From contig NZ_LT707409.1 of the NCBI RefSeq assembly GCF_900156875.1, positions 780,113 through 844,112 on the forward strand: a stretch of DNA of 64,000 nt, written 5' to 3'. Numbering within the stretch: the first letter of the stretch is position 1; each line of letters opens with the position of its first letter. The position numbers and the translations under genes are program-made. This document shows, one piece after another, positions 2,691 through 35,180 of this stretch. The notes beneath the pieces are model-generated. The model was not told where the DNA came from, made no database searches, and saw nothing but the letters and a program-made list of their open reading frames with translations. The DNA comes from Robertmurraya dakarensis (GTDB taxonomy: Bacteria > Bacillota > Bacilli > Bacillales > Cytobacillaceae).

Positions 2691-3905
2691 ATGTTAGTAA
2701 AACCTGAAGAACAATTAAAGATTATTATGAAGGGTGTTCAAGAAGTCGTAAACGAGGAAGAATTACTAGCTAAATTAGAGAAGTCATACCAGTTACAGAG
2801 TCCGCTTACGATTAAATTAGGGCTTGATCCTTCCGCACCTGATATTCACTTAGGTCATGCAGTTGTATTAAGAAAAATAAAGCAGATGCAAGATCTAGGT
2901 CATAAAGTTGTCATTATTATCGGTGATTTTACTGGCCGTATTGGGGATCCAACAGGAAAAGCAAAAGGACGGGCTGCTTTAAGTGACGAGCAGGTTAAAG
3001 CAAATGCAAAAACATACTTTGAGCAAATCTTTAAAGTTTTAGACTCAGAAAAAACAACGGTCCGCTTTAACAGTGAGTGGCTATCAAAATTAACATTCGA
3101 GGAAGTCATTAAATTAGCAGCAACAACATCAGTTGCAAGAATTCTAGAACGTGATGATTTCCAAAACAGATATAAAAATCAAGTACCAATCGGAATTCAC
3201 GAATTTTTCTACCCACTCATGCAAGCGTATGATTCGGTAGAGGTACAAGCGGATATTGAATTAGGCGGTACAGATCAGACATTTAACATTCTAATGGGTC
3301 GTACTCTTCAAAAACATTGGGGATTAGAAAAGCAAATTGCGATTTTTATGCCATTGCTCGAAGGTCTTGATGGTGTAGAGAAAATGAGTAAAAGTCTTGG
3401 CAATTATATCGGAGTAAATGAAGCGGCAGAAGTCATGTTTAAGAAAGTGATGGAAGTACCCGATAGCCTAATTATTAAATACTTTGAGTTGGCAACGGAT
3501 GAACATCCAGATGAAATACACAACATGAAACAGCTTCTTGAAAAAGGCGTTAATCCGAGGGATATTAAACTTCAATTGGCTAAAATCATTACAAGTTTAT
3601 ACTGGGGAGAAGAAGAAACGAAAAGAGCGGCTGCATATTTTGAAAGTGCTTTTAGTAAAAAAGAAATACCGGATGATATTCCTGAAATTTTAATAGAAAT
3701 TGGTGCAGAAACAGTTGAAGCCGTCATTCCGCAGTTAATTGAAAATGGATTTGTAAAGAGTAAAAGTGAGTTTATCCGTTTAGTTAAACAAAATGGTGTA
3801 CAGCTCAATAAAGAAAAAATCAAGGTAGATGATTTAGACCGTGTATTAATGAACCAAGACGTATTACAGATTGGTAAAAAGCGATTTATCCGTTTCATTA
3901 AATGA
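2691..3905 (+). CDS. tyrS: Tyrosyl-tRNA synthetase
   Basis: This class I aminoacyl-tRNA synthetase (404 aa) charges tRNA-Tyr in the cytoplasm. The HIGH motif appears as HLGH within DPSAPDIHLGHAV, the KMSKS motif is intact (EKMSKSLGNYIG), and the last 65 or so residues form an S4 RNA-binding domain (NGVQLNKEKIKVDD). The ATG at 2691 is preceded by AAGGAGAT; reading further upstream would run back into the T-box terminator. The sequence type resembles Bacillus TyrZ more than classical TyrS. The upstream T-box indicates induction by tyrosine starvation. Confidence 0.97.
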   Translation: MLVKPEEQLKIIMKGVQEVVNEEELLAKLEKSYQLQSPLTIKLGLDPSAPDIHLGHAVVLRKIKQMQDLGHKVVIIIGDFTGRIGDPTGKAKGRAALSDEQVKANAKTYFEQIFKVLDSEKTTVRFNSEWLSKLTFEEVIKLAATTSVARILERDDFQNRYKNQVPIGIHEFFYPLMQAYDSVEVQADIELGGTDQTFNILMGRTLQKHWGLEKQIAIFMPLLEGLDGVEKMSKSLGNYIGVNEAAEVMFKKVMEVPDSLIIKYFELATDEHPDEIHNMKQLLEKGVNPRDIKLQLAKIITSLYWGEEETKRAAAYFESAFSKKEIPDDIPEILIEIGAETVEAVIPQLIENGFVKSKSEFIRLVKQNGVQLNKEKIKVDDLDRVLMNQDVLQIGKKRFIRFIK

Positions 3906-22195: not shown

Positions 22196-22987
22196 ATGAT
22201 GGAACGATTTACAATCCCTCCAGACGAAAAAACGATTGTCAGTACATCGAGCAAAGGTGATCAATCAAAATGGCTAGTCGGGGATAAATGGATTAAGGAG
22301 AATACGTTTGGCTACGAAAATATGGCTGAATATGTCGCTTCTCTAATACTAGAAAGCTCAACCCTTCCAAAAAACTCCTATGTTTCTTATACACCCTGCT
22401 TAATCGAAAAGCCTGATGGAACGGTTACAGAAGGCTGCTACTCAGATGATTTTCGCGGTTCCTTACAGGAAGTGACGCTTGAACGGTTATTTGAAGCGAA
22501 TTTTGAAACAACCGATGAAATCGTAAATCATCCTCGTTATTCAACAGAAGAGAAGTTCCAGACCCTAATAGAAAAAATATATACACTCATAGGATTAGAT
22601 GTTTCTTGTGAACTAGCCCAGATGTTAGCTTTTGATGCGTTGATACTAAATGAGGACCGGCATACCAATAATATTTTGTTCCTATTGGATCCTAAAACGG
22701 AACACTGGCAGCTAGCTCCGTTGTTTGATCATGGCTTAAGTTTGCTGTCAGATTTGAAGGATTACCCAATAAGTAAGCCTTTAAATATTATAAAAAGACA
22801 AGTAAAAGCAAAGCCATTTAGTGTGTCATTTGAGAAGCAATTAGCTTTGTATCAAGGACCGCCGTTTATCAAGCGTTCCTTACTCCTTGATAAATTAGAC
22901 ACAGCACCTTATGATTTAGGCAGAGCAAAGGATGTAGCGATTTTTCAATTAAATGAAGATTCACTGCAGCGACTCATGATTGATTAA
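22196..22987 (+). CDS. HipA-like protein kinase
   Basis: The 263-aa protein shows the C-terminal kinase lobe of the HipA/CtkA group. The catalytic loop reads LNEDRHTNN at residues 151-159 (Asp154 as catalytic base, Asn159 metal ligand). The DFG-equivalent is FDHG at 177-180, and the region KWIKENTFGYENMAEYVAS matches the N-lobe Lys and following Glu helix. It lacks the separate N-terminal domain of classical HipA (about 430 aa) and is not preceded by a HipB-type repressor. A small gene follows 13 bp downstream and probably forms its partner. It might be a toxin, defence or regulatory kinase; target unknown. Confidence 0.75.
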   Translation: MMERFTIPPDEKTIVSTSSKGDQSKWLVGDKWIKENTFGYENMAEYVASLILESSTLPKNSYVSYTPCLIEKPDGTVTEGCYSDDFRGSLQEVTLERLFEANFETTDEIVNHPRYSTEEKFQTLIEKIYTLIGLDVSCELAQMLAFDALILNEDRHTNNILFLLDPKTEHWQLAPLFDHGLSLLSDLKDYPISKPLNIIKRQVKAKPFSVSFEKQLALYQGPPFIKRSLLLDKLDTAPYDLGRAKDVAIFQLNEDSLQRLMID

Positions 22988-23000
22988 GGGGGTGCCAAAG

Positions 23001-23387
23001 TTGATCGATTATATGAAATTTGATGTCATGTTCTTTGATGAGGTCATTGCGAGTGTTGATTTAAAGCCGAAGGAGGGTGATAGTCCCTACGTGATTAATT
23101 ATATCAAAGGCTTTAACAAACAATTTTCCCCTAATCCAGAAGGTTATATTACGAAAGAGGAATTAGAAAGATGGCTGAAGTGGCGGGTGTTTCCCCCAAC
23201 AAGGGTCAACGCGGATGAATTACTTGCATCTCTTGGTCTAACCAGCTATAACCGTTGGGCGATTGTGCGAAAAACACATGGGGTCATGGCGGATGATGAA
23301 ATATGGCTGCGTTTTAAAGGAGAAAACTTGAAACATCGGGATATCACGTTGCGTAGTTACCTTTATTATCCTGATCAAGCACTGTAA
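23001..23387 (+). CDS. Small partner protein of the HipA-like kinase
   Basis: The 128-aa protein begins MIDYMKFDVMFFDEVIASVD and contains a conserved-looking block of NRWAIVRKTHGVMADDEIWL and RFKGEN. TTG 23001 is the start because AAGGGGG lies 8-9 nt before it; earlier candidates overlap the kinase stop. I recall similar blocks (KTHG-MADD-IW) next to HipA-like kinases in other Firmicutes, but no functional name. The tight spacing implies co-expression, perhaps as substrate adaptor, N-lobe or antitoxin. Confidence 0.6.
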   Translation: MIDYMKFDVMFFDEVIASVDLKPKEGDSPYVINYIKGFNKQFSPNPEGYITKEELERWLKWRVFPPTRVNADELLASLGLTSYNRWAIVRKTHGVMADDEIWLRFKGENLKHRDITLRSYLYYPDQAL

Positions 23388-34363: not shown

Positions 34364-34981
34364 ATGACAATCAAAATTAAAATTTATTCTGATTATGTTT
34401 GACCATTTTGCTTTATAGCGGAGGCTCCGCTAGAAGAGGCAATTAAGGGAAAGGATGTTGAAGTAGAATGGATGCCCTTTGAATTGCGCCCTTATCCCAC
34501 GGAAACGTTAAAACCAGAAGGAGATTATCTCCAAACAACTTGGAGAAATTCCGTTTATCCAATGGCTGACCATTTTGGTGTGAAAATCACTTTACCAAGT
34601 GTTTCACCCCAGCCGTATACACATTTAGCATTTGAAGGGTATCAATATGCGAAGGAACTAGGGAAAGGAAATGAATACAATCATCGTATGATGAAGGCTT
34701 TTTTTCAAGAAGAACAGGATATAGGTGATATAGAGGTCTTAACAAAGTTAGCAGGAGAGTTGGGACTTGATCAACAGGAATTCCGAAAGGTGCAAGAATC
34801 GAGGAAGTACAGAGATGCACATCAAAAGGCCCTTCAGCATGCGTATACTGAAGCGAATATCCAGGCTGTTCCAACCTTTATTATTGGGGAAACTGAGGTT
34901 AGAGGTATGCGTTCAAAAGGTGAATTAGCAGAAATAATAGATAAGGAATTATCGAAAGGACAAGAAGGAAAAAGCCTTTGA
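34364..34981 (+). CDS. FrnE/DsbA-family thiol oxidoreductase with in-frame UGA, candidate selenoprotein
   Basis: Read through one TGA, the frame encodes 205 residues of a thioredoxin-fold DsbA/FrnE protein. It starts at ATG 34364 behind AGGGGCGGA. The N terminus is MTIKIKIYSDYV, then TGA (34400-34402, codon 13), then PFCFIAEAPLEEA. Relatives have CPFC or CPWC here, so the UGA replaces exactly the first active-site Cys, giving UxxC. Everything downstream is intact: MPFELRPYPTETLKPEGDY, the Pro loop AVPTFIIGE (cis-Pro) and a helical insert. A GC-rich hairpin follows the UGA (34416-34432). Either it is a Sec protein or the gene carries a precise nonsense mutation; without readthrough, only a start downstream (for example 34472) would be translated, and that product lacks the active site. 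Confidence 0.7.
34400..34432 (+). promoter_or_regulatory. Candidate bacterial SECIS element after the UGA codon
   Basis: TGA at 34400-34402 is followed by TAGCGGA (34416-34422), loop GGC (34423-34425) and TCCGCTA (34426-34432), a perfect 7-bp stem. The loop begins about 20 nt after the UGA and contains guanines, which fits the bacterial rule of a small apical-loop hairpin 16-37 nt downstream. The loop is only 3 nt, tighter than in E. coli fdhF. Confidence 0.5.
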
Positions 34982-35180
34982 ATATGTAATTGGGTTTCTT
35001 TCTAATTTAGGAATCACTGGTTATGGTTCGGGGCTATCATCAACCATGCGTAGAGATATAAGTGCAATGTAAGCAAATTTTATAACCAAAATTGGCGCAT
35101 TTGTGGAAGATGGGATGAATTTAATGATTGAAAGAGAATGGTTAGAACAACCTCCAAAGGTAGGGGACCGAGAGAAGTGA
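34977..35180 (+). pseudogene. Decayed C-terminal fragment of a DUF3231-like gene
   Basis: One frame reads FEYVIGFLSNLGITGYGSGL, then STMRRDISAM, a TAA (35070-35072), then FITKIGAFVEDGMNLMIERE and WLEQPPKVGDREK with TGA at 35178. The end resembles the DUF3231 ferritin-like family (MRRDL, AEDGxNIMIKxGWLEQPP). The front half is missing and an internal stop is present. It begins inside the end of the FrnE-like gene in another frame, so a deletion probably joined them. Confidence 0.65.

Follow-up and report, generated by a model that had tools for sequence, protein, structure and literature searches.

The gene considered here, a member of the DsbA family in Robertmurraya dakarensis, carries a UGA triplet exactly where the first active-site cysteine should be encoded, and this raises the question of whether the gene has been broken by a stop codon or encodes a selenoprotein. 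It lies within a 64 000-nucleotide stretch of DNA (the window; contig 11, positions 780113-844112, of a 5.48 Mb genome in 11 contigs). The reading reached here, with a probability of about 0.95, is that of an FrnE-branch selenoprotein, in which UGA13 would be decoded as selenocysteine (Sec) via SelB and a SECIS element inside the gene, and whose product is most likely a cytosolic disulfide reductase or isomerase. The argument refers to the following features.

34364-34981, forward strand: DsbA-family candidate selenoprotein gene (FrnE branch); 205 positions, with the TGA counted as one of them (U13).
34400-34402, forward strand: UGA, putatively read as selenocysteine; residue 13, the first active-site position of U-P-F-C; TGA in 29 and TGC/TGT in 62 of 91 distinct orthologues.
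34409-34411, forward strand: Cys16 (TGC), the second active-site position; invariant in an alignment of 25 orthologues.
34409-34441, forward strand: SECIS-like hairpin, lower stem included; the core, TAGCGGA-GGC-TCCGCTA, spans 34416-34432 and its loop 34423-34425.
34871-34873, forward strand: P170, the proline within VPT; V169-P170-T171 invariant in an alignment of 25 orthologues.
34472-34981, forward strand: standard-code view of the gene; 169 residues with the active site missing, the only open reading frame given for the frame by ORF search.

The initial annotation had described a frame of 205 codons with one TGA at the position of the first active-site cysteine, and this is what is found: the TGA at codon 13 is the single internal stop, and the frame closes with a terminal TGA at 34979-34981. 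The frame reads MTIKIKIYSDYV-TGA-PFCFIAEAPLEEA..., which places codon 13 in the context SDYV-TGA-PFC. The ribosome site that had been called good is indeed there (aggggcgg), but it is only fair, many orthologues having GGAGG. When all six frames of the window were scanned for genes with a single TGA to be read through, 14 candidates were obtained, two of which were left once those lying under longer ordinary open reading frames had been removed. The second of these (22953-23387) was set aside by reading alone and taken as the upstream extension of an ordinary open reading frame.

With C written for U, the read-through protein matches the Pfam DSBA domain (PF01323; 3.7e-26, residues 5-188), and its nearest solved relative by sequence is FrnE of Deinococcus radiodurans (2.4e-15); an NCBIfam search with the window protein gave nothing above the curated cut-off. 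An AlphaFold model computed from 25 orthologues, with the window protein (C for U) as row one, has a mean pLDDT of 88.6 and a pTM of 0.85, and its best structural match is FrnE 5cnw (TM 0.85, 28% identity). The FrnE-type motif CP(W/F)C is present with U at the first position, Cys16 would act as the resolving cysteine, and P170 of the VPT motif stands at what we take to be the place of the thioredoxin-fold cis-proline. No signal peptide is evident by eye in the window protein, which begins at the first strand (model strand 3-9).

A search for selA, selB, selC and selD had been proposed as a check, and all four are present in the genome. The tRNA-Sec scores 57.1 bits against an Rfam cut-off of 47, and ARAGORN reports a tRNA-SeC with anticodon tca; SelA scores 564.5 bits, SelB 361.9 bits (with SelB winged-helix domains) and SelD 400.2 bits. 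The SelD gene (C11:1158287-1159213) has one in-frame TGA, in TKAG-U-GCK, and from this context SelD itself looks like a selenoprotein. The initial annotation had also held that selenoproteins are uncommon in this group. This fails for the window's family, in which SelA and tRNA-Sec are each found in 172 of 193 genomes, and selenoproteins are therefore not rare there; the two sets of genomes differ, and a hand count of the lists places both genes in 170. Since the machinery is so widespread in the family, however, its mere presence is weak evidence within it.

More telling is the state of codon 13 in relatives. Of the seven genomes of the genus, only that of the window has an orthologue at E <= 1e-20, the matches in the six others reaching only about 30% identity; at the same threshold, 39 of the 193 family genomes have matches. 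The 30 best of the 40 matches, the window gene included, make up the family set, those left out being G036, G155, G134, the second copy of G015, G105, G106, G035 (TAA), the partial G033, G073 (31%) and the fragment G135 (two TGA). Codon 13 is TGA in 19 of these 30 loci and TGC/TGT in 11, and all 19 TGA genomes are on both the SelA and the tRNA-Sec lists. Named genomes yielded 317 confirmed loci, of which the best 80 were used and 79 read, giving TGA in 20 and Cys in 59. SelA is present in the genomes of 20/20 TGA loci as against 28/59 Cys loci (Fisher p 8e-6, uncorrected for kinship); independent, kinship-aware pairs relating TGA to SelA or the hairpin number from one (supported branches) to four (all branches), which is too few for significance. 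The two sets overlap, and removal of 18 identical sequences from their 109 loci leaves 91 distinct orthologues, in which the in-frame UGA, present in 29, aligns with the conserved redox cysteine (TGC/TGT) of the other 62.

Two kinds of record within the named set call for separate mention. Litchfieldia salsa has, alongside an intact TGA copy (L069), a second copy (L070, ~3001-3640) with two in-frame TGAs and the proline lost; it is apparently decayed and was left out of the counts on 79 loci. The loci recorded under Pseudomonas sp. ISL-84 (L113) and Chryseobacterium sp. ISL-80 (L117) have SelA at the same places as two genomes from the window's family, G063 and G088, and both records seem to be mislabelled.

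A 7-bp hairpin with its loop about 20 nt past the UGA had been noted from the window, and it is found at 34416-34432 with a distance of 20 nt. Its core, GCGGAGnnnCCG, occurs at the same place after codon 13 in 29/29 TGA genes as against 2/62 Cys genes. The hairpin goes beyond chance: when the 17 residues were recoded 2000 times at random with synonymous codons, following the window's codon usage, a single trial gave an equally stable hairpin whose loop lay 16-24 nt past the UGA. Moreover, three synonymous codons of the stem are fixed in all 29 TGA genes, namely GCG for A19, GAG for E20 and CCG for P22, whereas the Cys genes use them in 12, 10 and 27 of 62 cases, respectively (the Fisher values for these codons ignore kinship). 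Within the family set, the UGA-to-loop distance is 20 nt in 18 of the 19 TGA loci and 19 nt in one, and the best hairpin energy averages -11.7 kcal/mol in the 19 TGA loci versus -6.2 kcal/mol in the 11 Cys loci, although at the border the two groups barely separate (-8.5 versus -8.4 kcal/mol). Some Cys loci of the named set fold stably via other hairpins (L096, for example, at -14.7 kcal/mol), and in the TGA locus L145 the best-scoring hairpin is another one, at 33 nt; energy alone is therefore not diagnostic. RNAalifold predicted nine pairs from the 29 TGA sequences, two of which fail in one or two sequences, and no compensatory double changes were found in these nine pairs, which is the weakest point of the hairpin case. 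Taken in silico, the window gene carries a hairpin of the SECIS type.

The locus L145 (3001-3606) combines TGA at the codon with the hairpin core and is 63% identical to the query, and SelA is present in its genome. Its contig is labelled Gemmataceae (a Planctomycetota MAG) and has 68.6% GC; the gene may have moved from one phylum to another, or the contig may be misbinned.

The codons past the TGA are under purifying selection. Compared with its nearest relative, L069 of Litchfieldia salsa, the window gene has a pN of 0.096 and a pS of 0.631 over 185 codons, and in 19 TGA-TGA pairs formed among the other orthologues, with dS up to 1.2, dN/dS lies at 0.04-0.12 in 18, the exception being a near-identical pair with a value of zero. 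Between the window gene and many relatives dS is saturated, so that those ratios mean little, and pairwise ratios from sequence comparison do not isolate the window lineage. In a protein tree computed without codon 13, much of whose backbone is unresolved, the TGA/Cys trait takes four changes, and the window gene clusters with the TGA genes of L. salsa and Salinibacillus xinjiangensis, with a support of 99/93. The two Cys genes that carry GCGGAGnnnCCG belong to Paenibacillus naphthalenovorans (L114) and Paenibacillus sp. CC-CFT747 (L119), neither of which has a SelA match in its genome; they are likely to be former Sec genes that turned to Cys upon loss of decoding.

Could the family be a true selenoprotein family and the copy in the window nevertheless be starting to decay, or be unexpressed? 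Within its genus the gene is an isolated case, it has no C-terminal CX4C motif, and a DUF3231 remnant (34980-35177), broken by a TAA, begins at its 3' end. The initial annotation was right that this neighbour is decayed: it consists of two fragments with the TAA between them, whose matches to PF11553 (0.044 and 4.4e-06) fall short of the curated cut-off. The window protein ends at the position where the CX4C tail stands in many orthologues. The motif is found in 59/91 orthologues (17/29 TGA, 42/62 Cys), however, and is absent too from 12/29 TGA and 20/62 Cys orthologues, including L069 and L090, the two closest to the window gene. The frame, active site and hairpin of the window copy are intact, and its low pN relative to L069 also speaks against decay, although this pairwise ratio cannot show constraint in the window lineage alone. 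Incipient decay, or a lack of expression, is considered improbable.

Less probable still is a plain nonsense mutation, TGC or TGT to TGA, in a Cys gene that is now a pseudogene, an objection that had been raised when the frame was first described. The DUF3231 remnant directly behind the gene, the missing CX4C tail and the decayed second copy in L. salsa would all be in keeping with it. Against this, the same codon is TGA in 29 of 91 orthologues, every one of them with the hairpin core, the frame has no other internal stop, constraint extends past the TGA, and the genome has a full decoding set. On these grounds the nonsense mutation was rejected. The initial annotation had also named the findings that would count against a selenoprotein, namely a genome without sel genes, or close relatives with Cys codons throughout and no purifying selection downstream. 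The sel genes are present and the relatives are not all Cys, and both tests therefore favour the selenoprotein reading; the alignment of homologues that had been suggested (TGA versus TGC/TGT, hairpin core, selection past the TGA) points the same way.

Two further readings are very improbable. A working product from the internal ATG at 34472, with the UGA a true stop, would correspond to all that a standard-code ORF search shows, but neither the first strand nor the active site would be part of it, and it was rejected because residues 1-36 are conserved like the rest (Y8, S9, D10, V12, C13, P14, F15 and C16 are invariant in 25 orthologues). UGA is read through at a low level in general, and a near-cognate tRNA such as tRNA-Trp could do so here without selenium, but the non-TGA orthologues have Cys in 62/62 cases and never Trp, and TGA goes with SelA and the hairpin core.

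Besides the window gene, the genome has another case of this kind, outside the window. A paralogue at C11:1256066-1256707 (L028/L149; PF01323, 2.7e-44) also has a TGA at the active site, in TDFA-U-PFC. It shares 33% identity with the window protein, differs from it in having another hairpin, further downstream, and is far commoner in the family, with matches at E <= 1e-60 in 182/193 genomes. Among the matches listed, a hand count gives TGA in 98 of the 99 best rows and in none of the other rows, and in 30 fetched family loci the active-site codon is TGA in 29 and TGT in one. A downstream hairpin is possible, with GGCGTCTGGAGGACGCC or GGCATCTGGAGGATGCC depending on the locus, a difference that by eye resembles a compensated pair change; the predicted folds agree on this hairpin in three of four loci.

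In the proposed mechanism for the window gene, Sec-tRNA-Sec brought by SelB would read the UGA at codon 13, and the hairpin whose loop lies 20 nt beyond would serve as a bacterial SECIS within the coding sequence. The U-P-F-C active site would open helix 1 of the thioredoxin fold; the selenolate would attack a mixed disulfide or a protein disulfide, with the bond then resolved by Cys16, and the most likely role is that of a cytosolic disulfide reductase or isomerase. Decoding as Sec is what the frame, hairpin, decoding genes, conservation and constraint, all read from DNA, jointly suggest. The redox role is modelled on published work with Deinococcus FrnE and Listeria Lmo1059, by analogy with which the product is likely to be a cytosolic disulfide reductase with Sec as its nucleophile.

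Standard annotation would shorten this gene or call it broken, yet it is very probably a working selenoprotein gene. More widely, Sec decoding together with DsbA-type UxxC proteins is common in a large Bacillaceae-like family, and the occurrence of Sec and Cys forms in related genomes, with two Cys forms that keep the hairpin where SelA is missing, amounts to a natural experiment on the gain and loss of selenium in a disulfide enzyme. It may be proposed, tentatively, that many Bacillota with Sec machinery, including most of the window's family, retain it for Sec-based cytosolic disulfide repair, in which two UxxC FrnE/DsbA paralogues, each under its own SECIS, would reduce disulfides, whether of proteins or of low molecular weight (bacillithiol, for example). 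If true, oxidative-stress defence in these organisms would depend on selenium supply, and both paralogues would likely be shortened in standard annotation.

How does the window gene compare with known systems? 'DsbA-like, UxxC' has been on record as a selenoprotein family since 2006, and the window gene belongs to this known kind, sharing the Pfam domain PF01323, U-x-x-C and the decoding with the predicted 'DsbA-like protein' selenoproteins (PMC1794560, PMC5029168, PMC9312934, PMC13188914, each as far as its available text goes). The available part of PMC1794560 gives four DsbA-like selenoproteins, and three selenoproteins in all for Bacillales; that of PMC5029168 gives 41 and 45, taken as organisms and selenoproteins; DsbA-like, PF01323, UxxC appears as predicted in the available text of PMC9312934 and PMC13188914, and DsbA groups with UxxC are described from ocean samples in that of PMC2398784. 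The likeness to the DsbA-like family (representative NIP15863.1) is by description, and the available parts of PMC1794560, PMC5029168, PMC9312934 and PMC13188914 mention neither FrnE nor this Bacillota clade. No FrnE-type selenoprotein of Bacillaceae was found in titles and abstract openings of the open-access literature, and an earlier listing in a supplementary table is possible. What is new here is this Bacillota clade, its hairpin, the two hairpin-bearing Cys genes and the second UxxC paralogue in the genome. Among Cys forms, Listeria monocytogenes Lmo1059, likened to the window protein by description, is a DsbA-family protein with CPFC that reduces GSSG, its first Cys being critical for GSSG reduction and diamide tolerance (PMC10715225, available part). 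FrnE proteins, a group within the DsbA family, are predicted to be thiol oxidoreductases of the cytoplasm, and many of them, not all, have the CX4C motif, with a proposed role in active-site regeneration (PMC8945050, available part). D. radiodurans FrnE (DR_0659; 5cnw, 5cp1), the best match of the window protein by sequence and fold, has Cys where the window protein would have Sec, and according to the same available text carries the C-terminal CX4C; the window protein does not, and would therefore be recycled otherwise.
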